DNA of 21,853 nucleotides. Source: a virus. The translations under genes were made by a program, and so were the position numbers. This document shows, piece after piece, positions 1 through 21,377 of the stretch; the stretch's first letter is position 1; each line of letters opens with the position of its first letter. Location of the stretch: positions 1 through 21,853 of the IMG/VR virus record IMGVR_UViG_3300027770_000279; one strand, 5' to 3'. The notes under the pieces were generated by a model that saw nothing but the letters and a program-made list of their open reading frames with translations, did not search any database and was not told the origin of the DNA.

Positions 1-2765
1 CCGTACTGGTCATAGCCAACATAGTTTGCTGGGCCAATGCCAAAGTCTGTAGTGCGTGGATCAATCGTTCCAACCTTGGACATATCAAAGCCAGCACTGT
101 TGTTTCCACTGCCACTGCTGAACAGGTCAGAGTTACCTAGCAACGCGCCCAGAACAGCCCCAGTCACACCAGCGCCAGTGTTGGTGTTGATACCAGCAAG
201 CAACTTGTCAATCGCGCTTTGTTGCTCACCTTCATCAATTTTTTTCTGTCTGTTTTCAGCCGCAATTTGTGCGGGCGTTTTGTTTGGTGTCAGGTCGTAG
301 CTTGTCTTTCCGCTACCTGCGCCTGTAATTGGCCCAGCATTTACTCGACCACCGCCCAAAGGAATTACTTTGCCTTCTGGGTCAAGAACTTTAACTATGT
401 TGCCATAGTAGTCACTGACAATTTGGTTGCCCTCGTCGTCATAGGTGGTTGTTTTTGCAAGTTCTGTTTTGCCATCAACATCTGTTGAACTAAACGCATT
501 TCCCTCCGCATCATAGGTAACGGTTGAACCATCATCAAATGTCTCAATGTAGGAGCCATCATCAAAGTATTGACGGTTGTCAGTTCCACCTTGCGAAGTT
601 CCACCAGTTGAGCTTCCGTCTGTTACCTCAGTCACATCCAACACATTGCCGTCGGTGTCATAAGTAATGGACGAGCCGTCATCAAAGAACTGCGTTATGG
701 TTCCATCGCCGTTGTCGTTTTCAGCAACAGGGTCAGCAACAGACGCGCTTGATGCTCTTGCGTAAGTGTTTCTAATTGGGCCACTTTGCGAATACAAAGA
801 CAGGTCACCAGTCATTGTGGGATCGTCAAACTCACCGTAGTTGTAATCGACATTTTGAAAAGGCTGGACTTCTTCTTCAGTGTCAGAGTAAACAGCGTCG
901 CCATCAGCAAAACTAGGCACTCCGCCTTTTGCCATACCAAACAAACCACCCTTTGCGCCAAAGTCAATTTCCTCGTCGTCAACAGATGCATATTCCGTGT
1001 CGTCTTCGTTGGTGTAGTCATCTGGGTTGTAGCCATCGGCGTAGGAAACCAAGTTACCGTCGTAGTCGTAGGTGTTGCCGTACTCATCTTCTTGGGTGAA
1101 ACCAGTGTGATCTGCTTCAGCAATCAGGTTACCGTCCCAGTCATAAGTGCTACCGTCGTCTGCGGTGTAAACGTAGTCCGAGTGATCCGCCTCGGCAATC
1201 AAGTCGCCGTTTGCGTCATAAGTGTTTCCGTAATCGTCGGTGTAGGCAACATCAGTATCGCCACCCTCTTCATATACGGAGCCATCAGCGTACTGAACTA
1301 AGTTACCTTCACCGTCATAGACATTACCTTCATCATCAGTAAAGTAGCCGTCAGCTACAGTGGTGTCATCACCAGTATCTATCGCGTCGGTAGAGTCAAC
1401 AACATCGCCAGTGATGTCCGTGGTCACGGTGCTACCGTCATCGTAAGTCACGGTCGTTGTGCCGTCGCCGTTGTCTACGGTGTCAGTCACTACGGCAGTG
1501 TCTGTGCCGCCCATGCCAACATAAACAGGATTGCCTTCTTCGTCCAGTTCGTACCCCGGCATCAAGTTGCCGTCGTCGTCGTATGCAACTCCAGTTACCC
1601 CTGTGCCAGTCGTATCAGTACCGCCAGTGGTTGCACCAGCCGCCGCGCCAGCAGTTCCCGCAATACCGCGAGTTCCGCCTGTGCCTGCTGGAGTCTTTGG
1701 GCCTGTGCCAGTAGGTGTTTTGGGGCCAGTAGACGTAGGAGTCTTAGGGCCAGTGCTTGTTGGTGTCTTAGGGCCAACAGTAGTCGTCGGTTTTACCACC
1801 GAGGTAGGAGTAGTTTTTGTTGTGCCAGTCGTGCCAGTTGTTCCCGTAGTCTTAACCACGGGAGTTTTAACTGGGGAAGTAACGGCAGTAGAACCAGTAG
1901 TGCCTGTAGTGCCCGTGGTCTTGAGGCCAGTACCAGAAGTGCCCGTTGTCTTAATACCAGTGCCTGAAGTTCCTGTTCCAATATTGGTGCCAAGAGGATT
2001 GGTTTTGCTTGTAAGACCTGTGCCACCACCCATAGTGTCAAGATTTTTGTTTCCAGTAACTTTTAAACCAGTTCCAGAATTTGCAGTGTTAGATGTGTTG
2101 CTGGTTTTGTTTCCGCCAGTAAATTTGTCAACGACAGCTTTTGTGCCAACACCTAAGGCGGCACCAGCCAATGCGCTGGTCAGTGTCTTGCCAAGCGAAG
2201 AGCCACTTGATGTGGTTTTTGCTGGCGTTGTAACAGGAGTTGTTTTAGCCGCACCAGACCCAGTAGAAGTCAAAGTCTTGGCTGGAGTGGTTGTTTTAGC
2301 CGCGCCAGAGCCAGTAGAAGTTAAAGAGGTCGCAGGTTTTGTTGCGCCTGTTGTACTTGTCAACGATGGCAATTTAGAAGACGTAGAAGCGGCAGGCTTT
2401 GTAGCGCCAGTTCCTGTTGAGGTAATTGTTTTAGGAGCCGCCGCAGTTGATCCTGCTGGCCTTGCTGATGACCCAGCTTGATTTGTTGGGGTGCCAGCCA
2501 AAGTGCTTGTTACGTTGCTTGCAGGGCGACCGCCAAAGCCAGCCGCGCCAGTACCCAAAACGCCTTCAGCGCCTCGACCACCCATAGGTCTAAAGCCTTG
2601 GTCTTCCATAGGGCCGTAGCCGCTTGTGCCAGCTAGTTGGCGAACAGCAGAAGTAATTGGGGTCTCACCACGCAGGGCGGCGGCACGGTCACCACCTCTG
2701 GTGTCCTGATAACGCTCAAAACGAGGAAGTTGTTTTGTTGATTTGCGCTTTTGCAAAATTGCCAT
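1..2765 (-). CDS. Large repetitive acidic protein, 3' end beyond window (putative virion/ejected protein)
   Basis: An uninterrupted minus-strand frame starts at ATG 2765 and stays open to the left edge, giving at least 921 residues. The N-terminus is basic (MAILQKRKSTKQLPRF). Residues about 100-360 are Thr/Gly/Pro/Lys-rich with two LTSTGSGAAKTT copies and four GPKTP octads. Residues about 476-578 hold four YD-type repeats (Y-D-x-x-G-N-L-x-x-x-A-D). Residues about 590-640 contain GLFGMAKGGVPSFADGD. Further FDDGS / TYDxxGN motifs lie near 720-800, and a Gly/Ala/Leu-rich hydrophobic stretch (GAVLGALLGN) near 860. It starts 3 bp after the stop of the 628-aa gene, with a GGGG-type SD. I do not recognise a named family. 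Position after nozzle and putative core genes suggests an internal or ejected virion protein; a fibre or an adhesin is the alternative. The frame is certain, the role is not. Confidence 0.85.
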   Translation of the reverse strand, partial: MAILQKRKSTKQLPRFERYQDTRGGDRAAALRGETPITSAVRQLAGTSGYGPMEDQGFRPMGGRGAEGVLGTGAAGFGGRPASNVTSTLAGTPTNQAGSSARPAGSTAAAPKTITSTGTGATKPAASTSSKLPSLTSTTGATKPATSLTSTGSGAAKTTTPAKTLTSTGSGAAKTTPVTTPAKTTSSGSSLGKTLTSALAGAALGVGTKAVVDKFTGGNKTSNTSNTANSGTGLKVTGNKNLDTMGGGTGLTSKTNPLGTNIGTGTSGTGIKTTGTSGTGLKTTGTTGTTGSTAVTSPVKTPVVKTTGTTGTTGTTKTTPTSVVKPTTTVGPKTPTSTGPKTPTSTGPKTPTGTGPKTPAGTGGTRGIAGTAGAAAGATTGGTDTTGTGVTGVAYDDDGNLMPGYELDEEGNPVYVGMGGTDTAVVTDTVDNGDGTTTVTYDDGSTVTTDITGDVVDSTDAIDTGDDTTVADGYFTDDEGNVYDGEGNLVQYADGSVYEEGGDTDVAYTDDYGNTYDANGDLIAEADHSDYVYTADDGSTYDWDGNLIAEADHTGFTQEDEYGNTYDYDGNLVSYADGYNPDDYTNEDDTEYASVDDEEIDFGAKGGLFGMAKGGVPSFADGDAVYSDTEEEVQPFQNVDYNYGEFDDPTMTGDLSLYSQSGPIRNTYARASSASVADPVAENDNGDGTITQFFDDGSSITYDTDGNVLDVTEVTDGSSTGGTSQGGTDNRQYFDDGSYIETFDDGSTVTYDAEGNAFSSTDVDGKTELAKTTTYDDEGNQIVSDYYGNIVKVLDPEGKVIPLGGGRVNAGPITGAGSGKTSYDLTPNKTPAQIAAENRQKKIDEGEQQSAIDKLLAGINTNTGAGVTGAVLGALLGNSDLFSSGSGNNSAGFDMSKVGTIDPRTTDFGIGPANYVGYDQY
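1032..1340 (-). repeat. Four tandem YD-type protein repeats
   Basis: Within the left-edge gene, four successive units of about 25-30 residues share Y-D-x-x-G-(N/D)-L-(I/V)-x-x-A-D. The cores read YDGEGNLVQYAD, YDANGDLIAEADH, YDWDGNLIAEADH and YDYDGNLVSYAD, each preceded by an acidic G-N/S-x-Y turn. The core resembles the RHS/YD repeat consensus YDxxGRL, but Arg is replaced by Asn or Asp and the units are much more acidic. Confidence 0.75.
1680..1775 (-). repeat. Four 24-bp tandem repeats encoding GPKTP octads
   Basis: Four in-frame 24-base units encode GPKTPTST, GPKTPTST, GPKTPTGT and GPKTPAGT in the left-edge gene. The DNA copies differ at synonymous sites (for example CCTAAGAC and CCCAAAAC), so the repeat is kept at protein level. 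It probably forms an extended Pro/Thr linker between the N-terminal part and the acidic repeats. Confidence 0.85.
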
Positions 2766-2768
2766 GAT

Positions 2769-4655
2769 TTACCCCGATTTCTTTAAGAGAGAAGTCAACC
2801 CTGAAATGTTTGCGAGTGGTGTCAGTTTACTCACATCCACCTTGACGGGGACTGATTTTGTTGCAGGCGACAGCTTGGAAATGTCTACCTTTTTAGGTGC
2901 GGCTTTTTGGATTGCAGACAACGCAGAACCTGTCAAAGCCTTTGGAACTGACAAGGCTGGCATCTTCTTGCCAGTCACGGCGCTGTTGATTGCACCCCTT
3001 GTTGCGGTGCCAGCAACTTTCTTGGTTGTGTCGCCAATGAGCTTCTTGACCAACGTGCCACCAAGTCCACTTGTGACGTTTGATGTGCCAGAGCCGCTGG
3101 TCACCGTATCGGTTCCAGTTACGCCTTGAACAGTGTCAGTGCCTGTACCACCAGTAACAGTGTCAGTGTTTTGCGCCAACGTATTCAAACCGCCAGTTGT
3201 GGTGGTTGCTGTTGTATCAGTAGCAGTTGTGTCAGTACCAAGCAAGTTATTTGTTGCTGTGGTTAGACCGCCGACAGGTGTGGTAGACCCAGTGGTGTCT
3301 GCGCCAGTAACCGTCACCGTGCCAGTGGTGGTATCGGTGCCAGTGGTTGTTGGAGTGCCGCCCGTTACAACAATGTCGTCATCTTCTTCATCGCCTAGGC
3401 CAGTCAAGCTAGTGCCAGTTAAACCAGTGCCAGTTGTGAGCGTACCGTTGACAGTTGTATCAGAAGTTGATGTGTTGTTTGTGGTTGAGTCTGTACCCGC
3501 CAAATTAGAGTTGGCAATAGTTGTCAACGCGCCTTTTGTGGTGTCTGTGTTTGTATCGTTTGCGCCGTTGATGTCCGAAATAATATCGTTGACATCCGTA
3601 CTGCCCCCAAAATTGGTGACGATTTGGTTGTTGTCGTCGCCCGTAAGCGTTGTACTGTTGGTGCTAGAGTCGGTGCCAGTGGTTTGACCGCTCAACGCAG
3701 TCTTGTCAACGTAGTCTCCAATCTGGCCCGTAACCACATTGCCCAACTCATTTGCGCCAAGGGTCAATAGGCCAGTGCCAACGTCCTTGTCGTTGATGAC
3801 ATCTCTGGTAATTGATCCAGCGGCCTTACCAGCAAGGTTAGAACCAGTCAAATCAGTAACTTCATTTGCAACCGTAGCACCAAGAAGGCTGGTTCCAATT
3901 GTTCCAAAGTCAACATTCTGTCCATGCGCGGCGGAGTTTAATGTTGAGGACGCAACCTGACCAACTATTTTTGAGCCAGTCTCAGCGGCGATCTCGCTAC
4001 CAACAAAGCCAGTACCCACAGAGATCAAAGAATCTGTCAGGGCTTGACCAAAGTCACCACCATTGGTTGCGGTATTGATTGCAACCTTGCCAGCCAATTG
4101 CTGAACTGACGCGCTGGCATCAGGCAACAAAGTCTCGCCAATGGTTGTAAGAATATTATTTGCGCCCTGCGATAGGGTGCTTGCCGCATTTGTCACAGCA
4201 TCAAAAGCGCCGCTTGCGGCTTCGACAAAACTAGATGTTGTAACAGTGCCTGCGGACGCAGTAGACACAGCCTCAACTACCGTTGCTCCTTCAGCAACCA
4301 AAGAAGCGCCAGTTGCGGCGGCTTCGACTGTAGCGCCAGCCTCAATCAAAGTTGTTGCGGCAACAGTTTCTGCGCTTGCAATTGCGGTTACAGCCTCAGT
4401 GGCCTCCAGCACAGCCGTACCAACCTCCACGGCCTCCAGTGTTCCAGCCACCTCAAGAGCGCCCACAATGCCAGCCTCTGCGGCAAGATAACTTAGCGCA
4501 TACGGGGCCGCAATAGCCGCAACAATCAACAGAGGATTCTCTGCGACCGCATCCATGACCTTGCCTGCAACCTCAACAACGGTCTCGACAACGTCACCAA
4601 CAGCCTCAACGATGCCTTCAACAGCATCAACAATTGCATTAACTATGGCGCTCAT
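2769..4655 (-). CDS. 628-aa Ala-rich/low-complexity protein, putative internal virion protein
   Basis: Three parts are visible. Residues 1-130 are dominated by Ala, Val and Glu in helical heptad-like spacing, with a possible membrane segment near 41-58 (PLLIVAAIAAPYALSYL). Residues about 170-310 look globular, Gly/Ala-rich, with GDFGQALTDSLISVGTGF and similar repeats ending in LGANELGN. Residues about 325-545 are almost only Thr, Gly, Asp, Asn and Val. The C-terminus is basic and has two copies of KVD(I/V)SKL(S/T)P at 589-597 and 605-613. Start ATG shares one base with the preceding stop (TAATG), with GAGGGG upstream as SD. No family is recognised. An amphipathic, Ala-rich protein in this position could be an ejection/core protein, by analogy with the T7 gp14-gp16 region; that is inference only. 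Confidence 0.85.
   Translation of the reverse strand: MSAIVNAIVDAVEGIVEAVGDVVETVVEVAGKVMDAVAENPLLIVAAIAAPYALSYLAAEAGIVGALEVAGTLEAVEVGTAVLEATEAVTAIASAETVAATTLIEAGATVEAAATGASLVAEGATVVEAVSTASAGTVTTSSFVEAASGAFDAVTNAASTLSQGANNILTTIGETLLPDASASVQQLAGKVAINTATNGGDFGQALTDSLISVGTGFVGSEIAAETGSKIVGQVASSTLNSAAHGQNVDFGTIGTSLLGATVANEVTDLTGSNLAGKAAGSITRDVINDKDVGTGLLTLGANELGNVVTGQIGDYVDKTALSGQTTGTDSSTNSTTLTGDDNNQIVTNFGGSTDVNDIISDINGANDTNTDTTKGALTTIANSNLAGTDSTTNNTSTSDTTVNGTLTTGTGLTGTSLTGLGDEEDDDIVVTGGTPTTTGTDTTTGTVTVTGADTTGSTTPVGGLTTATNNLLGTDTTATDTTATTTTGGLNTLAQNTDTVTGGTGTDTVQGVTGTDTVTSGSGTSNVTSGLGGTLVKKLIGDTTKKVAGTATRGAINSAVTGKKMPALSVPKALTGSALSAIQKAAPKKVDISKLSPATKSVPVKVDVSKLTPLANISGLTSLLKKSG
3023..3683 (-). 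repeat. Thr/Gly/Asp low-complexity tract
   Basis: This part of the 628-aa gene encodes a long run of short imperfect TGTDT / TTATDTT / GTDTV units, including DTVTGGTGTDTVQGVTGTD. On the plus strand it reads as a Val/Pro-rich open frame, which is only a shadow of the codon bias. The tract separates the helical N-terminal part from the basic C-terminal tail. Boundaries are approximate. Confidence 0.6.
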
Positions 4656-5104
4656 TATTTATTTCCCCTCGCTGGGCCAAGCACCAACGTAACTTGCAGT
4701 CCGCCATCGGTTGTCTTTTGTGCGCTGTAGCCCATGCCTTCACGCACAGGGTCGCGGGCAATTGCCTTGAACAAACCAAGCAAGCTCAAGTCACTGAATT
4801 GAGTCACCACCACATCAAAGCCAACCTTGTAGGCGGCATCTGCAAAAACTCGGCTATTTTGTAAAAAGTTACGGGCACTGTCTGCATTCAAGGCGCGAAA
4901 GAAACCATAGCCAGCCTCTTTGCTTTTGTGAACAATGAAAAGCGTATTGCCTTCGCGCATCTTCCACACGTTAGGCATCCGAAACTCAACGGTCAGCATC
5001 TCCTTGACCTCTTTGATCGGGCGACCAACTTTGGTGTTCTCAGCGGCTATCTCAATGATCTGCTCACTGGTCAACTGCTGTTGACTGCTGTCTATCATGT
5101 TCAT
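4655..5104 (-). CDS. 149-aa unknown protein coupled to the ketosynthase gene
   Basis: ATG 5104 overlaps the ketosynthase stop by four bases (ATGA), with GAGGA six bases upstream as SD, so translation is coupled. The N-terminal 40 residues are polar and helical. The core from about residue 46 alternates strands and helices: NTLFIVHKSKEAGYGFFRAL, a helix with SARNFLQN, then GFDVVVTQFSD, SLLGLFKAIARDP and a final strand QVTLVLGP. This pattern is compatible with a small GNAT-like alpha/beta fold of the type seen in T7 gp13-like (DUF2833) proteins, but I cannot confirm an acetyl-CoA loop. If it is an acyltransferase-fold protein it could take acyl groups from the neighbouring ACP. If it is gp13-like it belongs with the following core-protein candidates. 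Confidence 0.85.
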   Translation of the reverse strand: MNMIDSSQQQLTSEQIIEIAAENTKVGRPIKEVKEMLTVEFRMPNVWKMREGNTLFIVHKSKEAGYGFFRALNADSARNFLQNSRVFADAAYKVGFDVVVTQFSDLSLLGLFKAIARDPVREGMGYSAQKTTDGGLQVTLVLGPARGNK

Positions 5105-6216
5105 GTCAGTTCCTCGAATATTGCGGCGGAATAGATATTCCCCATACCAGCCGCGAGACTAAGAATCAAACCATCTGGCTTGGAAACTGATTCCGAAAGG
5201 AATACCAAATCGGTTTCTGTTCTGTTCTCAATCGCAGGCACATACCCAGATTTTAAATCGTCTAGCAATAAAAGTGTTTCCAATAGGCCACTGGAACCCA
5301 TCGTGTGCCCAATTTTTTGTTTATACGAGGTAGCAACAAACTGGTCTAATGAGTTTAGAAGGGCAGTCTTTTCAGCTTTATTGTTTGACTCAGTGCCCGT
5401 GCCGTGAGTCTTGACGATGCCTATTTCGTCCGCTAAGACGCTGGAATAGTGCATAGCGCCCATGATTGCCTTGAAGAAGCCATCACCATCCTCTAGCTGT
5501 CCAATCGCGTTTGTAGAGGCTTCTGACGCGCTGTAGGCACCAACCAGACGGGCGTGAGGGGTTGCATCGAGCTTACCCACGGCGTAGTCAGACTCAAATA
5601 CCGCCAGCGCGGCTCCTTGGCCTATTCTGAAGCCAAAGTTCTTGCTGTCAAAAGCAGAGGGCTGAATGCCTGTCTCTTCCTGCTTCTGGGTCAAAACGGC
5701 CTTGGCCTCGCCAAAAAACTCCAACACGGCATTGGTGATCCCATCCTCGACGGTCAGGACGATGACCCTATCAAAGTGATAGTGGTTGATCAGGTTCTGC
5801 ACATCCATCATCACCTTGAGGCTGGAAGCGCAGGCCGAGGAATCGGTCGTCACCATGTCCATCTTGCCAAAGGCTTGGGCAGTCCGCCCTGCATAGACCT
5901 GCGTCAGGGTGAATGGCAAGAACTTGTAGACGTAGTTCAGGCTGTTGTTTGGGTAGGGCCGCTGGTTGATACCAGCAAAGTGGGCATTGCCAGCCGCCAA
6001 AATGAATGCAGTCTTGCCTACCTGATTCTCACGCAAGTAGGTCAGCAACTCAGGGTCAAGAACCTTTTCCGCGAGCTTGTGAGGGACGTAGAACATTCCG
6101 CTCTTGGCGCGGGCGTAGGTATCAGGGAACCAGTGAACCTTCTGAGGGTAGACAATGTCGTCAAACAAGTTGATCGTGGTTGTGGAGGCCGTCCGATAGT
6201 GGGTAAGGTAGATCAC
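5101..6216 (-). CDS. Beta-ketoacyl-ACP synthase (KAS I/II-type) encoded by phage
   Basis: 371 residues; thiolase-fold condensing enzyme expected to join an acyl group on its cysteine with malonyl-ACP and release CO2. The nucleophile is Cys129 in TTDSSACASSLKV. The first catalytic histidine is His271 in KTHGTGTESNNKAE, matching HGTGTxxND. The second is His304 in KQKIGHTMGSSG, with the conserved lysine at 299. The Cys-His-His set separates it from KAS III (Cys-His-Asn). The C-terminal GFGG gate loop is represented by AAGMGN (355-360), where Met replaces the gating Phe. It is shorter than typical FabF (about 410 aa). The start is GTG 6216, overlapping the ACP stop as GTGA; no other start is needed. 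Substrate and product are unknown. The family call is strong; a metabolic role in the phage is inference. Confidence 0.92.
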   Translation of the reverse strand: MIYLTHYRTASTTTINLFDDIVYPQKVHWFPDTYARAKSGMFYVPHKLAEKVLDPELLTYLRENQVGKTAFILAAGNAHFAGINQRPYPNNSLNYVYKFLPFTLTQVYAGRTAQAFGKMDMVTTDSSACASSLKVMMDVQNLINHYHFDRVIVLTVEDGITNAVLEFFGEAKAVLTQKQEETGIQPSAFDSKNFGFRIGQGAALAVFESDYAVGKLDATPHARLVGAYSASEASTNAIGQLEDGDGFFKAIMGAMHYSSVLADEIGIVKTHGTGTESNNKAEKTALLNSLDQFVATSYKQKIGHTMGSSGLLETLLLLDDLKSGYVPAIENRTETDLVFLSESVSKPDGLILSLAAGMGNIYSAAIFEELT

Positions 6217-6497
6217 TTGATCTGCTCCTTGATCTTCTCAATGGACTCAGGCTCTATGGTCTTGTGGGCCATAAGCAGGTCGTGACACTCTTGCACGGTG
6301 GTTGGGTGCCATTCTTTGCTGGTCTCGTCGTCTACGCCGTAGATTTCGCAGAAGTACATTAGCATCACCAAACCATCCAAGCTGTCAATGTTCAATTCAG
6401 CCATTGCGTCCTCCATAGCCTCGGCGGGCTTGAAAGACATATGGACGGGCTTTGCCACCCTTGCCACGACGTTGAAGATTTCAATAAAGTCAATCAT
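6213..6497 (-). CDS. Acyl carrier protein
   Basis: 94 residues from ATG 6497, which overlaps the preceding stop (ATGA); a longer upstream extension is possible but not needed. The carrier motif is LNIDSLD, with Ser39 as the expected 4'-phosphopantetheine site. It is followed by a helix II (GLVMLMYFCEIYGV) and by the TTVQE motif that opens the last helix in bacterial ACPs. Length, acidity and motif spacing fit the family. The following gene, joined by a GTGA overlap, is a ketosynthase, so the two are probably partners. No phosphopantetheinyl transferase is visible here, so activation would depend on a host AcpS or Sfp-type enzyme. The extra C-terminal tail (EPESIEKIKEQIK) is Lys/Glu-rich and could be a docking or additional helix. 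Confidence 0.9.
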   Translation of the reverse strand: MIDFIEIFNVVARVAKPVHMSFKPAEAMEDAMAELNIDSLDGLVMLMYFCEIYGVDDETSKEWHPTTVQECHDLLMAHKTIEPESIEKIKEQIK

Positions 6498-6757
6498 TCG
6501 TATGGTTGCTCTGTTGGTTGGTTTATAGCGCCGACGATGGCCTGCGCCCAGTCCTGCCAATTCTCAAAGATGTAGGGGCCGGGGATGCCCTCGTTTGTAA
6601 AAACATCAATCGCCTTCAACCCCGCCGCCCACTGCTTCCAATCCTCTTCTGGAGTATTCATTGATAGCTGTTGCGACGCATACGCCTCGCACATAAGACT
6701 CGTCCACGAGTTCCATGTGTGATACCGAGGGTCGTATACAAGCGCAAGAAGTGCCAT
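6494..6757 (-). CDS. 87-aa hypothetical phage protein, Trp-rich
   Basis: I chose ATG 6757, one base after the nozzle stop, because GGA lies seven bases upstream (ACGGAACTTAACATG). An ATG at 6781 would add eight residues and overlap the nozzle gene, but has no visible SD. The protein is small, acidic and rich in aromatic residues: TWNSWTSLM, EDWKQWAAGLKAIDVF, FENWQDWAQAI. Spaced W/WA pairs suggest two packed helices. No membrane segment or catalytic motif is seen. Its stop overlaps the ACP start as ATGA. I do not recognise a function; a small tail-associated or ACP-associated accessory protein are both possible. Confidence 0.8.
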   Translation of the reverse strand: MALLALVYDPRYHTWNSWTSLMCEAYASQQLSMNTPEEDWKQWAAGLKAIDVFTNEGIPGPYIFENWQDWAQAIVGAINQPTEQPYE

Positions 6758-6758
6758 G

Positions 6759-9011
6759 TTAAGTTCCGTAAGGTCTGACATCGCCAAGCGTTACGCTCAA
6801 CAACACCCTACCCATTTGATAATTTCCACCACTTACGTTACTTCTAAAACGCAAACGAATTTCACGCCTTTGCTGGCGCATATCAATTTTGCCCGTATCT
6901 GGGGAAAACACATAAGGATCAGACGCTACGTCTGCTGACTGCGCGTAGGGGCGACCAATCACTTGAAAAGTCATCTCGCCTTCTTGGATAAAATCAGGCT
7001 CAACACGCTCTAAATTGACCCAAAAGTTTTCGCCCACTGGTGCGGGTTGGGAAGGCCCGCCAGCTACAAAACCCAAATCACTTGTTTCAAAGTAACTTTC
7101 AATAGCGTCTGTGGTTTCATCAATAACTTGGTCAGTTCCAATTTCATGTTGCCACAAAATTATTTGATTAGCCACGGTATCAAAGTTTGCGGTTTCAATT
7201 ATTGTTGCCGTTGCGTTTGCAGACAAAGTCAAACTCAAACCAGAAAACGACATTGTTCCTGATACAGCACTGCTGTTGACCACAGACAAAGTGATGGTCG
7301 TTCCCGCAATAATGGTCACAACAGCGCCCACGCCAATACCAGTTCCTGCAACGGATTGATTTAAAACTATGCCTGTTGCACTATTTACCACAATAGTGCT
7401 TGCCCCAGAAGTGCCAGTTGCTGTTGGTGATGCCGCATTAGGCGTAATCAAACTGACCAATGCCCCAGAAGGTACGCTTGTAGATACAACTTGCTGACCC
7501 ACAGCAACTAAATTGTTTGGGGAAATTGTGATGACAGCACTTGCATTCGTTGTTGAGATTGATGCAGAGAAAATAACCTCCTGCTCACTCAATGTTGCCC
7601 CAGCATTGATGGGGTAATGGAACACTTGAGAAAAGTATCCAGCCGTGCGACGAGCGCCTAAAGCCTCGCCTGCGTCATACCAACAATCTTCTCGCACGTT
7701 GTAGATGATGCAGTCGTTGCACTCTTCTGAATCGCCAGAAGGAAAGAACCACCAAATTTCACCAAAACGTGGAACTTTGTTGACAAAGACTTTTTGCTGT
7801 TGAGCATAGTTCAAGTTGTCAAAAAAGTAGTTTTGATTGAACGTGTTTTTTATTTCCTTAACCACGCCGTTGTACATCAAGAAGCGGTCAACACCAATCC
7901 AATAGTAGATGCCGTCATATTCAATGACACACTGGCTGGAGAGAATAGAAGACTGGCTGGAAATGATGTCATAGCGCCAGTAGAAGGTTTGGGGGTTTCC
8001 AGCAATCGTTATGGTGGTTGGGGTGTAACTGACGCGAATCAACGAGTCTAACGCCCAGAACAGCCCAGAGGGAGCGTTAGAGCCACCTCGCACTGGCAAA
8101 CCCTTGACAATCTTTGTGGAGGCCACGTTGGTCTCGTTGGAGTCAGCACCATTCCAATCATATGGGTCTCCAGCAACACAATTCTTGATTAAACCGTTGT
8201 CTCCATACACAAAGACGTATGGGTGCAAAACCACTACACCGCCAGCAACTTCAATAATGTCACCTGTTGGGGTTGCTCCATTGGTGTCTGTAAGCGGAGA
8301 CAAAGTAGTGCCATTGATGTTTCCAGCCAAAACTGGGGTCACCGTTGTTTGGTCAATCTGCGCTAAGTTACGACCAGCGTGAGCCAATAGCAATTGGTTT
8401 CCAGAACCCTGAGCATCAAACGTAGAGTCAAACTGCCATAAGTTTAAATCGCTTGCTGTAAAAGTGGTGATTGTGGCAACTTTAATTGAGAATCCAGAAC
8501 CACTACCACCAAGATTGGTGTTTGATGCGCTCAATGTATTGCCAACAACGTAGTTATTTCCATAACTTGTAAGAGTCACAGAGGTCACAGCACCACCAGA
8601 TACAACAATGGTAGCTTTTGCACCAGAGCCAGAACCCCCAGTTAACGGTACAGCCGTATAAGTGGCGTTTACATAACCAGAGCCACCAACAAGCGTGTTT
8701 AGCGTTAAGGCTCTTCCTGTAAAAGTAAATTGATTAACACCAGAACCAATGCCAAGGTTGTTGATGTTGACAACCTCAAGACCGTTGTTGTACCCGTTAA
8801 AAACCGAGTTGACACCATCGACTGAGTTGACATATATGCCGCGAGAGTATCCGTTTGCATTGCTGACAATTGCGCGATAGCCACCAACTTTTCTTGGGCG
8901 ACCACGTTGAAAGCGTACCCAACGAGCGTCCGTGTAGAAGTTCAGGTCAAACACGGTTCCATCGCGCTGGACGCCCGGCAACGTGTCAATGGTAAAAACT
9001 TTTTTGACCAT
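6759..9011 (-). CDS. Tail nozzle protein (tail tubular protein B-like) with two inserted modules
   Basis: 750 residues. The N-terminus (TLPGVQRDGTVFDLNFYTDARWVRF-like pattern, residues 9-35) and the repeated strand blocks with GIYVNSVDGV, YVFVYGDNG, DGIYYWIGVDRFLMYNG and CIIYNVREDCWYDAGEA fit the beta-propeller nozzle proteins of short-tailed phages. This protein forms the distal tail tube. Two stretches look inserted: residues about 105-180 (GGSGYVNATYTAVPLTGGSG, then GGAVTSVTLTSYGNNYVVG) and about 483-605 (Ser/Thr/Val/Gly repeats such as GTSGASTIVVNSATGI). Without them the length would be near 550. The start overlaps the previous stop by one base (TGATG). The C-terminus (VLLSVTLGDVRPYGT) resembles the conserved end of such proteins. 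Confidence 0.8.
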   Translation of the reverse strand: MVKKVFTIDTLPGVQRDGTVFDLNFYTDARWVRFQRGRPRKVGGYRAIVSNANGYSRGIYVNSVDGVNSVFNGYNNGLEVVNINNLGIGSGVNQFTFTGRALTLNTLVGGSGYVNATYTAVPLTGGSGSGAKATIVVSGGAVTSVTLTSYGNNYVVGNTLSASNTNLGGSGSGFSIKVATITTFTASDLNLWQFDSTFDAQGSGNQLLLAHAGRNLAQIDQTTVTPVLAGNINGTTLSPLTDTNGATPTGDIIEVAGGVVVLHPYVFVYGDNGLIKNCVAGDPYDWNGADSNETNVASTKIVKGLPVRGGSNAPSGLFWALDSLIRVSYTPTTITIAGNPQTFYWRYDIISSQSSILSSQCVIEYDGIYYWIGVDRFLMYNGVVKEIKNTFNQNYFFDNLNYAQQQKVFVNKVPRFGEIWWFFPSGDSEECNDCIIYNVREDCWYDAGEALGARRTAGYFSQVFHYPINAGATLSEQEVIFSASISTTNASAVITISPNNLVAVGQQVVSTSVPSGALVSLITPNAASPTATGTSGASTIVVNSATGIVLNQSVAGTGIGVGAVVTIIAGTTITLSVVNSSAVSGTMSFSGLSLTLSANATATIIETANFDTVANQIILWQHEIGTDQVIDETTDAIESYFETSDLGFVAGGPSQPAPVGENFWVNLERVEPDFIQEGEMTFQVIGRPYAQSADVASDPYVFSPDTGKIDMRQQRREIRLRFRSNVSGGNYQMGRVLLSVTLGDVRPYGT

Positions 9012-10245: not shown

Positions 10246-10881
10246 TTAAGTATCCAATACAGAGGCTTGACGGTCACCAATACGCTGGACATCCTCAGAC
10301 TTCAAAGTCTGAATGATGAGGTCGTAATTCTGTTGCCACATTGGCATCCGCTCATCGTTCTTGACGTATGGCATAGCTTGCAACAAAGACCCATACAGCA
10401 ACGCCTGTGGGGCGTAAATGGTAAACCAGTTGGTTTGGTTGGAGGAATCAAGCGGCTGGAGCCGCTCGTAGTACAAAACTTCAAAATCATACGCAACAGC
10501 AGGCGAGGGAGCGACTAGCCAATGGGTGTAGTCGTAGTCGCCGTAATAAGCGGGCGCACCAGTCGTTGTTGCGTCTGGGGTGTACTCGCGTAGGTACTCG
10601 TACTTACGAAGCAAGACAGGTTGTTTCTCACCATCTACGGTCACGTTCATGGAGACCGTCTTGTGCCAGCGGGCTGGTTTATCAATGATAGGCTGACCAA
10701 TTGTCATGGTCGAGGTCTGAACCATCAAATTGCCAAGAAACTTGATTTGGCTGGCAATAATCTGCTCTGCCAGCATAATGAACAGCGGAATCTTGGCAAG
10801 CGTATCGTCATCAGTACGGTCTAGGTAAGACTGGATATTCTCGACCAAAGAGTCGTAAGTCATTACCGATGCGGTTGCCAT
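10246..10881 (-). CDS. Phage adaptor protein (SU10 adaptor-like)
   Basis: 211 residues with the features of head-to-tail adaptor proteins of the SU10 type. An N-terminal helix (TYDSLVENIQSYLDRTDDD) and a second (IPLFIMLAEQIIASQIKFLG) lead into a beta sheet with PARWHKTVSMNVTVDGEKQP and LRKYEYLREYTPDATTTGAP. Then comes YTHWLVAPSPAVAYDFEVLY and a C-terminal helical part (LLYGSLLQAMPYVKNDERM). These adaptors sit below the portal and connect to the nozzle. Start ATG 10881 lies two bases after the endolysin stop, with a GGGG SD. An internal ATG at residue 8 (MTYDSL) is possible. The window holds another adaptor-like protein at 19780-20841. Confidence 0.85.
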   Translation of the reverse strand: MATASVMTYDSLVENIQSYLDRTDDDTLAKIPLFIMLAEQIIASQIKFLGNLMVQTSTMTIGQPIIDKPARWHKTVSMNVTVDGEKQPVLLRKYEYLREYTPDATTTGAPAYYGDYDYTHWLVAPSPAVAYDFEVLYYERLQPLDSSNQTNWFTIYAPQALLYGSLLQAMPYVKNDERMPMWQQNYDLIIQTLKSEDVQRIGDRQASVLDT

Positions 10882-13333: not shown

Positions 13334-15361
13334 TTAAACGGGGCCGATGTTGGGGAATGCCGCAGTGGGCGGTGTGAATGTTGTGGTGTATCGGGCGTAA
13401 CCTTTAGTAACACGCAAGTCATCTATGTAGCCGTTAAAATAAGATTGTGCGCCGTCCCAATTACCGCCGCCGATTCGGTTACCTAATTTACCCCAATCAA
13501 AATTAACGCTTGATGAAATTGTTGTTGATATAACAGATGAACCATCTCGATACATTGATATATTGGTTCCATTTCTTACCACAGCCAAATGATACCAAGT
13601 GTTTAATGAGTTGGTTGGGCCAGATGCAACGAAAGTACCCACATCGTAAAAGGCAAGAAAAAATTTATCGTTATACGACACCGAGTCAGCGTTGCTGTTT
13701 GTTATTGCAAGTGCGCCAGCAGAATAACCACCATTGTTGTTTCCAAAAATAAGAGGGTAATTTAATGTTCGGCTTGATATGTAAACCCAACATTCAATCG
13801 TCCAATTCCCTGTCGTCATGTTTAAATCTGGGGTTGCAGGGCTACTAAGGTTGTCGCCGTTCCCATCAAAATACAAAGACCCAGTTCCATACTTGTACAC
13901 GCTTGTAGAAATCTGTGCGTTACCCACAGTTGTCAAATTGTTCATCATGGCGTTGTCAAAGATGCCAGCGTTGCTTGTGTTGAGCAATAAAGTTGTATTT
14001 GTTACGGCAGTCAATGGAGCAGTGGGGGGTGTAAATGTAGTTGTGTAAAGGCAAGTCCCTTTAATCAAACGCACATTTGAAAGATAGCCTGTCCAATATT
14101 CACCCGTGGTGTAAGCAACTCCACCAACGCCTAAATTAGTATCGCTGTAAGTTCTTGCTGTGGCAGTTGATGAAACTAATACACCGTTTAAAAATAAGTA
14201 TTGAGTTGAACCACTTCTAGTAAACGCAACATGATTCCAAGTATTTAAAACAACAGAAATGCCTGTAAGAATAAAACCAGCGGCATAAACATACATAGTG
14301 CCGCCAGAGTCAGCGGCTAATGCCCATCCATTGCTAGTTCCGTTTGAAGCCCTTGTTTCTATCAGCGAACGGTAGCCGGGGTTTGAGGTGGCGTAATAAA
14401 AACACTCAGCAGTAAAATCTCCCGTGCCAAAAGCATAACCCGCATTTGTTGAAAAACTTAATTGGGATGACCCGTCAAAGTACCCTGACCCACCAATCAC
14501 GCTTGTGGAGTAGGCGGTAGAAGCACCAAATGGGTTGAAGCGTTGAACGCTTGGTGTGCCGCTTGTTGTAATGGTAAGTGGGCTTGCGCTGGTATCAATA
14601 AAACGATTGCTTTGGCAAGTTAAAAGGCTTGTGCCTGATATTGCAGTTAATGGTGTTGTGCTAGGCGTAAAATTAGATGTGTAAACTGCTGTGCCTTTAA
14701 CAACTCGCACATTAGATAAATATCCTTTAAAGTTACAAGACGCACTTCCATTATTACCAAGCCATACACTACCACCAATAGCAAGATTTAATGACGCAGA
14801 TGATGTTCCAGTTCCATCAGCAACACCATTTACATATAAAGTAAAAGTAGTTCCATTTCTTACAAGCGCAACATGATACCAAGCATTTGATGGATAGGTA
14901 TTAGTTGATGAAAAAAATGGATCGCCAACAGAATTCCAAAAAATTCCAAATTTATTTGAGTATGCTGTATTTGAATAACGAATATAAAAAGTACCCGTAG
15001 ACCAAGCAGATGATGGGGCAAACATTGATGGAAAACTTGTTGTTTGAGTATCAGGATTAACCCACATTTCAATAGTGCAGTTTCCAGTTCCCATATCAAG
15101 CGCAGAACCTCCTCCATTTGAAATGGCTAAATAACTACTACCATCAATATAATTTGACCAATTAGACCCATAAGGTGAGAAAGAACCTTGGGTTGTAGCG
15201 CCACTACGGGTAACAGTAGCGCCAGTTGATGATGAGTCAATAAATGTATTATTCTGTGCGCCATTAGTTCCATCGCCGTGCAAAAGCATAGTGACATAGT
15301 TGAACTGAGCGTCTATTGTGCTACCCGATGACGCACCTGCTGTTTTTCCTGCCGCAAACAT
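13334..15361 (-). CDS. Triple LamG-domain adhesin (receptor-binding candidate)
   Basis: 675 residues with three concanavalin-like LamG domains: about 24-238, 244-452 and 456-669. Each has a sheet with the pattern TIEMWVNP / FTAECFYY / TIECWVYI, a WYHVALVRNG-type strand (NTWNHVAFTRSG, NTWYHLAVVRNG), and a closing motif GYLSNVRVVKGTAVYTSNFTP, GYLSNVRLIKG and GYIDDLRVTKG. LamG domains of this kind bind carbohydrates and are common in phage fibres. The N-terminal 20 residues (MFAAGKTAGASSGSTID) could be the attachment peptide. The gene is AT-rich in domains 1 and 2 compared with its neighbours. SD AAGGA overlaps the previous stop (TAAGGA) before ATG 15361. Confidence 0.9.
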   Translation of the reverse strand: MFAAGKTAGASSGSTIDAQFNYVTMLLHGDGTNGAQNNTFIDSSSTGATVTRSGATTQGSFSPYGSNWSNYIDGSSYLAISNGGGSALDMGTGNCTIEMWVNPDTQTTSFPSMFAPSSAWSTGTFYIRYSNTAYSNKFGIFWNSVGDPFFSSTNTYPSNAWYHVALVRNGTTFTLYVNGVADGTGTSSASLNLAIGGSVWLGNNGSASCNFKGYLSNVRVVKGTAVYTSNFTPSTTPLTAISGTSLLTCQSNRFIDTSASPLTITTSGTPSVQRFNPFGASTAYSTSVIGGSGYFDGSSQLSFSTNAGYAFGTGDFTAECFYYATSNPGYRSLIETRASNGTSNGWALAADSGGTMYVYAAGFILTGISVVLNTWNHVAFTRSGSTQYLFLNGVLVSSTATARTYSDTNLGVGGVAYTTGEYWTGYLSNVRLIKGTCLYTTTFTPPTAPLTAVTNTTLLLNTSNAGIFDNAMMNNLTTVGNAQISTSVYKYGTGSLYFDGNGDNLSSPATPDLNMTTGNWTIECWVYISSRTLNYPLIFGNNNGGYSAGALAITNSNADSVSYNDKFFLAFYDVGTFVASGPTNSLNTWYHLAVVRNGTNISMYRDGSSVISTTISSSVNFDWGKLGNRIGGGNWDGAQSYFNGYIDDLRVTKGYARYTTTFTPPTAAFPNIGPV

Positions 15362-19405: not shown

Positions 19406-19780
19406 TTAGGTACTCGTATTGTCTGGGGGGTTCGGCGCAATGGTGTCCTTGTTCCCCGTGTTTGTAGGAGTCTGAGTGTTTTGTTCGGTCGAAATCTGGA
19501 ATTGGCTTGAGCCATCCATTGATTGACTGCCAGTCATCAGATAGTTGTCGCCAGCACCGATAGGCGTGTCAGGACGCGCAAACCGCAGGTTAATACGTTC
19601 CGTCTTACGGGCGGCGAGGCGGTAGGGGTCAAACTGATCCCTGCATCCTTGGTCGCAGACTCGTAACCCGGGGAAGTTGGGGTCTGGCCCCAGCGTCACA
19701 AAGGCGCGTTTCATCTTGCATCGGTCGCAAACCCCGATGGCAAGGGACGTTAGCCCCGTTGTGTCTAAAAAGATTGGCAT
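19406..19780 (-). CDS. Small zinc-ribbon-like protein, 124 aa
   Basis: Two cysteine pairs, Cys18-Cys21 in VCDRCKMKR and Cys42-Cys46 in RVCDQGCRDQ, suggest one zinc site. The segment between them is GPDPNFPGLR. A conserved basic stretch follows (DPYRLAARKTERINLRFARP), and the last 45 residues are polar, low in complexity and probably disordered. Its position between adaptor and fibre genes suggests a minor structural or assembly protein. Start ATG 19780 shares one base with the adaptor stop (TAATG); no clear SD, so reinitiation is likely. Confidence 0.82.
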   Translation of the reverse strand: MPIFLDTTGLTSLAIGVCDRCKMKRAFVTLGPDPNFPGLRVCDQGCRDQFDPYRLAARKTERINLRFARPDTPIGAGDNYLMTGSQSMDGSSQFQISTEQNTQTPTNTGNKDTIAPNPPDNTST

Positions 19781-20841
19781 TAGGCCGTATACACCGAAAT
19801 ATTCGGTGCCCAGTAAATTGGTGAACGATCCCGCTCTTCAGCTTCAGCATCTGCCAAAAACTTATCCGCCATCTTTTCAAGATAGCCAACACGATCCATT
19901 GCAACCTGTGGCAACTCAAGCGCCATGCGGTGGGCAAGCATCATCTGCACAGCCTCATACCAACGCTGGGGAATCTCAAGCTCATCAGTGAGTGATCCAA
20001 CGTCTTCAATTTGACGCGAGTACCAGCAAACGATCTGCACAAAAGCAGTTGATGGCGTAGGCCACACATAAATCGATGGCTGGGGAATAGTGCGGTCAAA
20101 CCAATATTGATAAGGTTGGTTTGCTGTAAAGTTCTTGTTTGGCAGGTTGGTGTAGTCGTCGCGGTTCAGTGGAGACATCTGAACCTCAAGCGAGTTGTTC
20201 CCAAAGTACAACTCACGCAACGACAGGGTTGTCGTGTTGTAGGCGCGAATGCGGTAAAAAGCGACCGTTTGACCAGCCTCAATGTCAGTCCACACCCAAG
20301 TGTTGTTGACCACATCAATGGTGCCAAGATCAACCAAAGTGGCCCAAGTTGTGCCGTCTATTGAGTATTCATAAATGATTGACCACGAGCCAGTCGAAGC
20401 AGGCAAGAATCCAATGGAGCCAATATAAATTGGGTTGGATGTGCCGTAATTGACGGAAATGTTGCCATCAGCGGACGTTTGGGTGCAAATCGTCTGTGTA
20501 TCACCGTCATATACGTTTGCAACGGTTCCGCCAGCAGAACTGGTGTATGCGCCATTGGGGCGCGCCATTGTGCGATACAGCACGTTCCAGAGGTCAATTG
20601 TGCCTTTTGGAAGGGTGTAAAGGTAGTTGTCTATCTGTGAACCAAGAACCTTCTTGGTGATTGTCCAAAACTGAATACCTCGGTTTCCAAGATTGGAAAG
20701 CAAGAAGTACAGCGATTGTCGGGCTGACAGCACCTGCTCAGAAGTTAACTCTTCGGCGAGCTTTCCACAGCGTCTAGCGCCGTGATCAATCAATGTCTGT
20801 ACATTGATGACGGTCTGTCCTACGGTTCCAGAAAACGCCAT
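19780..20841 (-). CDS. Tail adaptor (T7 gp11-like) with inserted discoidin-like domain
   Basis: 353 residues from ATG 20841, chosen because AAGGA lies eight bases upstream; an upstream start at 20874 would overlap the preceding gene and lacks an SD. The N-terminal helical part (residues 1-80, SEQVLSARQSLYFLLSNLGN) and the C-terminal part (YQYWFDRTIPQPSIYVWPTP, YSRQIEDVGSLTDELEIPQR, then long helices with AHRMALELP) match tail tubular/adaptor proteins. A beta-sandwich of about 115 residues lies between (about residues 92-216): ANVYDGDTQTICTQTSADGN, GSWSIIYEYSIDGTTW, VAFYRIRAYNTTTLSLRELY. This resembles F5/8 type C (discoidin) carbohydrate-binding domains. Confidence 0.82.
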   Translation of the reverse strand: MAFSGTVGQTVINVQTLIDHGARRCGKLAEELTSEQVLSARQSLYFLLSNLGNRGIQFWTITKKVLGSQIDNYLYTLPKGTIDLWNVLYRTMARPNGAYTSSAGGTVANVYDGDTQTICTQTSADGNISVNYGTSNPIYIGSIGFLPASTGSWSIIYEYSIDGTTWATLVDLGTIDVVNNTWVWTDIEAGQTVAFYRIRAYNTTTLSLRELYFGNNSLEVQMSPLNRDDYTNLPNKNFTANQPYQYWFDRTIPQPSIYVWPTPSTAFVQIVCWYSRQIEDVGSLTDELEIPQRWYEAVQMMLAHRMALELPQVAMDRVGYLEKMADKFLADAEAEERDRSPIYWAPNISVYTA

Positions 20842-20852
20842 GTTATGTGTCC

Positions 20853-21377
20853 TTACCAGCCGGGGCAGTCCCACCGCTTCAGCGATGCTTTGGCGCGTGG
20901 AGCGTCCCCTTTTGAATGTTCAACCACCCCGCTCATGCGGGCACAAAATGAATCCTTACGGGCACCGCCTTGAGGCTGTGGAGCTTTCAAGTGAGAACCA
21001 GTCTCTCTATTGTATTTGTCTCTGCCCTTTTGCGTAAGCCCTGCGCCCTTTTCAACGGATAATTTTTCACCCCGTCCAACAGCAAGACTTGGCCCGCCAT
21101 CTTTTAATTTGGCGGTTTTTGCTGACTCTCGGAAGGCTTCAGCCGTTGGCGCACCTTTGCTACCCACTCGGCGCATTTTTTCGCCAGAACCTTCAGCGAT
21201 TCTTTGACGTTTTGCATTGATGTTGTCATATAGACCGCCTCCTTTAAGTTTTTTCCCCTCATCAGCACGAGCAAACTCTTTGCCAACTTTTTGGGGAATA
21301 CCCACCTTTTTGGCGAACGCAGGGTTATGTGCGACCGCCTCCATCAAACGATGTTGGGAAGGTGATTTGCTTGGCAT
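20853..21377 (-). CDS. DUF6321-type protein, 174 aa
   Basis: Basic and hydrophilic protein. The C-terminal 70 residues carry the DUF6321 pattern: GLTQKGRDKYNRETGSHLKA, ARKDSFCARMSGV and SLKRWDCPGW. The preceding 100 residues are a Lys/Gly-rich region with PQKVGKEFARADEGKKLKGG and repeated GxKM/KRR stretches. No membrane segment. Such proteins are found near capsid and tail genes; DNA binding or a minor capsid role is possible but not shown. Its stop TAA is part of the SD of the next gene (GGTAAGGACAC). Confidence 0.8.
   Translation of the reverse strand: MPSKSPSQHRLMEAVAHNPAFAKKVGIPQKVGKEFARADEGKKLKGGGLYDNINAKRQRIAEGSGEKMRRVGSKGAPTAEAFRESAKTAKLKDGGPSLAVGRGEKLSVEKGAGLTQKGRDKYNRETGSHLKAPQPQGGARKDSFCARMSGVVEHSKGDAPRAKASLKRWDCPGW

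Follow-up and report, generated by a model that had tools for sequence, protein, structure and literature searches.

An acyl carrier protein, a ketosynthase and a predicted GNAT-fold protein form a cassette beside putative ejection genes of uncultured phages

The acyltransferases of the RtxC/HlyC family and CdiC have a GNAT-like fold, take acyl-ACP as donor and act on target proteins that are bound for the envelope of another cell (PMC8339906, PMC8510554). ApxIC, an acyl-ACP-using member of the HlyC family, resembles GNATs, and the CoA-contacting elements are missing from it (PMC8339906). There is evidence that CdiC attaches 3-hydroxydecanoate to a protein directed at a second bacterium; its authors propose a lipid A anchor (PMC8510554). 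FeeM is likewise an exception among GNATs in drawing its substrate from a carrier protein (PMC6331615). In phages, fabF and acpP are known as metabolic genes and have been reported as single genes or in fabG-acpP-fabF sets (PMC8224337, PMC7029224). Finally, T7 gp13 (PF11090) and P22 gp14 (PF11039) lie just before the ejection proteins of their phages, and related viral models give them a resemblance to the GNAT fold. The way in which short-tailed phages form a channel through the host envelope is so far a matter of models, and we found no established role for GNAT-like genes beside their ejection genes.

The locus described here brings elements of these systems together. It lies in the window, by which we mean the whole of the 21,853-base virus record IMGVR_UViG_3300027770_000279, a contig fragment of 21.9 kb. 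The following genes are concerned, in the order in which they are read:

6759..9011, minus strand: nozzle-like virion protein (PHROG virion structural match, 8e-25; homologue in MW202545 annotated as phage stabilization protein; name inferred)
6494..6757, minus strand: conserved small gene (about 87 aa with the start codon taken from homologues) that separates the nozzle-like gene from the cassette
6213..6497, minus strand: acyl carrier protein (ACP), 94 aa, carrier Ser39
5101..6216, minus strand: KAS I/II-type ketosynthase (KS), 371 aa, GTG start, with Cys129, His271, Lys299 and His304
4655..5104, minus strand: predicted acyltransferase of GNAT fold that lacks the usual CoA loop
2769..4655, minus strand: IVP1, a putative ejection protein with an M-S-A-I-V N-terminus and an amphipathic helix; candidate acyl acceptor
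3..2765, minus strand: second putative internal virion protein, 921 aa, extending past the contig end

The label "nozzle" for 6759-9011 is based on weak family matches together with gene order. In the window the small gene, ACP, KS and the GNAT-fold gene are coupled by four-base overlaps, and the last three form a cassette that is flanked by the nozzle-like/small-gene pair on one side and by the putative ejection genes on the other. A first-pass annotation had described this locus as a pair. It was right about ACP and KS and missed the third member, the GNAT-fold protein at 4655-5104; the conserved, modification-like N-terminus of the neighbouring putative ejection protein had escaped it as well.

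The KS of the window matched both ketosynthase domains of Pfam, ketoacyl-synt (1.2e-10) and Ketoacyl-synt_C (2.3e-12), with scores of 41.9 and 47.4 bits that exceed the curated cutoff of 20.8 and place it in the KAS I/II superfamily. The top NCBIfam model was fabF (2.4e-29); against the FabF equivalog TIGR03150 the protein reached 102 bits, far under the equivalog cutoff of 493.75. Alignment with E. coli FabF and FabB, the KAS II and KAS I enzymes of type II fatty acid synthesis (FAS), showed that Cys129, His271, Lys299 and His304 correspond to their catalytic Cys, His, Lys and His, a set that is invariant in all 141 distinct KS sequences. The phage KS therefore has the fold family and the catalytic residues in common with these enzymes, but differs from them in several respects. 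It has about 35 residues fewer ahead of the active-site Cys than FabF, the FabF motif HGTST..GD..E reads HGTGT.SNN..E, and the gate Phe in the GFGG loop of FabF is a Met (141/141). In a tree with bacterial KAS the phage KS formed a single, separate, phage-only clade, whose branch is very long and which is distant from all bacterial KAS. Because the stem of this clade is too long, the origin of the phage KS could not be placed. A recent transfer from bacteria was rejected: a single genome scan returned no close bacterial relative, and the phage KS make up one clade. Among the nearest relatives of the window, the median dN/dS was 0.07 for KS and 0.09 for both ACP and the GNAT-fold gene, with dS near saturation in some pairs. 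A collection of phages additionally gave FabF-like matches (H2-H15; 23-30% identity) in "phage" records of Listeria, Enterococcus and Staphylococcus that carry no annotation; these probably represent bacterial fabF, or bacterial DNA, inside those records.

As a single sequence the window ACP gave no Pfam match. Members of its family matched Pfam PP-binding (best 3e-4), the family profile retrieved solved ACPs (best 9.9e-5), and an AlphaFold2 model (pLDDT 93) resembled ACPs in structure comparison. Its carrier serine, Ser39 in a DSLD motif, was invariant in 138 of 138 distinct ACP sequences. With ACPs of the AcpP type it shares the helical fold and the DSLD carrier serine. Unlike AcpP, it has a less acidic helix II (charge of about −2 versus −5 in the E. 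coli protein), an additional C-terminal helix in the predicted model, and no acidic residue at the position of AcpP Glu41 (0/138). The acidic residues of AcpP helix II are the ones used by the host FAS enzymes; with these residues reduced, the phage ACP looks specialised, or "private", for partners of its own. As to the identity of the two proteins, the Pfam matches, the FabF alignment and the family and fold matches bore out what the first-pass annotation had read from the letters, namely a complete KAS I/II-type KS and an ACP with carrier Ser39 within a structural operon.

The same held for its statement that the partner genes of fatty acid synthesis are missing. A search with PF01648, PF00698, PF13561 and PF07977, which gave matches in control genomes, found no phosphopantetheinyl transferase (PPTase), malonyl transferase, FabG-type reductase or FabA/Z dehydratase in the 19 long KS-bearing records. 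Since none of these records holds a PPTase, phosphopantetheinylation of the ACP would rely on the host.

The third member of the cassette had no convincing match in Pfam or the PDB by sequence, and those searches gave no match to the RtxC/HlyC family either. Its AlphaFold2 model (pLDDT 89.5, pTM 0.82) has GNAT topology. Foldseek (probability 1.00) returned PDB structures of which the top ones were nearly all GNATs, led by RimI (E 4e-4). In further comparisons of this predicted model, the best Z of 11.1 was obtained with an aminoglycoside acetyltransferase (rmsd 3.5, 127 aligned), and the acyl-HSL synthase TofI matched with a Z of 9.5. The usual Q/R-x-x-G-x-G/A acyl-CoA loop is absent in the family, where the position reads LNAD(T/S)xxNF/Y. 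Because of this absence we speak of a predicted GNAT fold and not of an "acetyl-CoA GNAT"; similarity to the fold does not by itself establish function. Over 129 sequences Asp75, Ser6, Gly52 and Asn53 were invariant, while His59, considered with the catalytic His of the RtxC/HlyC enzymes in mind, was present in 118 and is not invariant. Fold comparison also showed a resemblance to viral models that bear the labels Internal virion protein A and DUF2824. Sequence homology to T7 gp13 or P22 gp14 was not detected by hhalign, which gave probabilities under 1% against single sequences.

KS relatives were found encoded in 393 viral contig stretches, a set that was extended by scans from divergent members. 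Among 216 fetched KS loci, in which some contigs are counted more than once, ACP lay immediately upstream of KS in every locus with room, and the GNAT-fold gene lay immediately downstream in all loci with room except four related fragments. When 80 loci were fetched by their ACP, KS was missing in one only, where the contig ends. The same gene order is present in MW202545 (Manatee Spring), a complete circular genome of 57 kb. Whether the ACP and KS genes recur next to the nozzle-like gene had been posed as a check on the original reading, and they do so in this order in the fetched loci with room. The alternative named there, homologues confined to bacterial chromosomes and a misassembled contig, does not apply: the sole close KS match in bacterial genomes, L083, is a contig in a Balneolaceae MAG on which phage-like genes occur together with this ACP-KS-GNAT module. 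Recurrence of the locus and of its order ruled out misassembly as well as a host operon, and KS-ACP does not stand as a lone metabolic gene either. The carriers are a large family of uncultured phages, which are probably short-tailed. In L083 (1738-9572) the nozzle-like gene and the cassette are separated by extra genes.

Relatives without the cassette were also found. RLK and GB2A, two cultured phages of Caulobacter, have a virion gene directly after the nozzle-like gene and the small gene, and this empty state was seen in about 60 more viral loci. The long records comprise 19 with KS and GNAT, 10 with neither (RLK and GB2A included) and two with GNAT alone; the 10 cassette-less records keep the nozzle-like gene, the small gene and the following virion gene. 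L316 and L317, the two contigs with GNAT only, are close to identical. In a tree of the nozzle-like protein they are nested in a KS-bearing clade, which suggests a joint loss of ACP and KS in this lineage, with GNAT retained. A different partial state was met in L203, where the ACP-KS pair (3602-4998) adjoins an SNF2-type helicase-like gene and small genes, not ejection genes; L206, L207 and L212 are arranged likewise, and no GNAT was seen on these four short fragments.

Directly after the GNAT-fold gene lies IVP1 (2769-4655 in the window), a putative ejection protein by its position. In T7 and P22 this position is held by the gene of a gp14-like protein, preceded by gp13 in T7 and by gp14 in P22. 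The gp14-like protein of T7 is the first to be ejected and enters the outer membrane. The GNAT-fold gene thus sits where T7 gp13 and P22 gp14 do, just ahead of the outer-membrane ejection protein; T7 and P22 have no ACP or KS there. IVP1 is highly variable apart from its N-terminus, which in the family typically reads M-[S/G/A]-A-V-V and continues into an acidic amphipathic helix. Among 47 dereplicated relatives, 45 have Ser, Gly or Ala as residue 2 and 40 start with M[SGA][AGSV][VIL]; the first 45 residues are acidic with an amphipathic moment of 0.51 versus 0.30 after shuffling. A small second residue that is bared by removal of the Met is a typical substrate of N-terminal acylation. Cassette-less phages have an unlike protein start at the IVP1 position, and in L316 and L317, which lack ACP and KS, the corresponding protein begins with MGWVKF or MGLFSW, a switch that represents a single evolutionary event. 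The motif could also be conserved merely as an amphipathic helix. Lysine acylation of the HlyC kind was rejected for IVP1, as no conserved lysine column was found among its relatives. At the other end of the putative ejection protein, a C-terminal motif DGE(F/Y)V..A.TV..LGNGS..AGA..L is conserved (L456, 4251-6062; L321; L195).

The interpretation that we tentatively favour is that KS charges the private ACP with an acyl chain, or lengthens one there, and that the GNAT-fold protein moves this chain to the N-terminus of IVP1, which would amount to virion lipidation. With somewhat more reserve we suggest that private ACP and KS feed the GNAT-fold protein so that the N-terminus of the ejection protein becomes fatty-acylated and gains a lipid anchor for crossing the envelope. 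The host PPTase would make holo-ACP, and host enzymes would supply the malonyl and acyl groups. KS, to judge from its catalytic residues, may use an acyl chain of the host, by condensation or by transfer, to charge the phage ACP, with acyl- or 3-oxoacyl-ACP as the product. The predicted GNAT-fold protein would accept the acyl group from the phage ACP and not from CoA and, once the Met has been removed, place it on the alpha-amino group of IVP1 at M-[S/G/A]-A-V-V, where it may aid packing of IVP1 in the head or its entry into the outer membrane during DNA ejection. By analogy, the cassette may act like the acyl-ACP-dependent protein acyltransferases HlyC or CdiC, with CdiC as the nearest working parallel. 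This comparison concerns the logic of the reaction: the known enzymes acylate lysines via the host ACP, whereas the phage cassette encodes ACP and KS itself and has an N-terminus as candidate acceptor. No sequence relation of RtxC/HlyC or CdiC to the GNAT-fold protein was detected, and we do not claim membership of their families.

In favour of acylation, GNAT accompanies KS in each of the 19 long KS records and both are absent in the 10 cassette-less ones. The GNAT fold lacking its CoA loop, the private ACP, the IVP1 start with no conserved lysine, the changed start in L316/L317 and the gene position shared with T7 gp13 and P22 gp14 count on the same side. Against it, GNAT is retained without ACP-KS in L316/L317, so that it can work or survive alone, and ACP-KS occurs without a visible GNAT in L203, L206, L207 and L212. 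These exceptions speak for an arrangement that we consider unlikely overall, in which the GNAT-fold protein is a non-lipidating assembly factor of the T7 gp13 / P22 gp14 type and ACP-KS is an independent inserted module. The gene position and the fold resemblance to the viral Internal virion protein A and DUF2824 models agree with it, as do L316/L317 and the separation of ACP-KS from GNAT in the L203-type fragments. However, wherever else there is room the three genes stand together, none of them is present in the cassette-less relatives, and no sequence link to gp13 or gp14 was found.

The L203-type fragments, with ACP-KS away from ejection genes, also bear on a proposal to which we give a similarly low probability, that ACP and KS modulate host lipids or fatty acids by diverting or altering host acyl chains, with GNAT a mere neighbour. 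This could take the form of a membrane change ahead of lysis or of malonyl/acyl sequestration. It would accord with earlier reports of fabF and acpP among the metabolic genes of phages (PMC8224337, PMC7029224), and without FAS partners of its own the phage must use host metabolism. It is opposed by the near-strict linkage to GNAT, the place of the cassette in a structural operon, an ACP surface unlike that of AcpP and the distance of KS from bacterial KAS. Unlike the reported phage metabolic genes, this locus has no reductase and is a fixed three-gene cassette in a structural operon. Among the three purposes that the first-pass annotation had offered, the present evidence favours the supply of an acyl group to a virion protein; a membrane change or sequestration of host ACP or malonyl groups would leave the GNAT linkage unexplained. 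The least probable of the alternatives is synthesis of a small N-acyl compound, an N-acyl amino acid or an acyl-homoserine-lactone-like molecule, as made from acyl-ACP by GNAT-fold enzymes of the FeeM and LuxI types. The GNAT fold with its match to the AHL synthase TofI, the precedent of FeeM as a GNAT drawing its substrate from a carrier protein (PMC6331615) and a 3-oxoacyl KS product that would suit a signal or surfactant point in that direction, but the cassette lies between virion genes and the conserved IVP1 start tracks it.

N-terminal acylation of IVP1, if true, would mean that fatty-acid-type genes of phages can help to build the particle and are not only metabolic helpers. A GNAT-fold protein encoded together with an acyl carrier and a condensing enzyme leads to a concrete prediction, a fatty-acylated ejection protein that is detectable by mass spectrometry. 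The literature searched, outside which lay most subscription papers and all preprints, did not contain an ACP-KS-GNAT cassette in a phage structural operon, nor did the searchable papers describe fatty-acyl attachment to an injected phage protein. There is a substantial chance that the cassette is a new kind of system.

Elsewhere in the window, matches to the SU10 adaptor family were obtained for 10246-10881 and 19780-20874 (E 2e-23 and 7e-6, respectively), and the window seems to encode two adaptor-like proteins. The product of 13334-15361 has three laminin G/concanavalin-like domains and is probably a fibre or adhesin.
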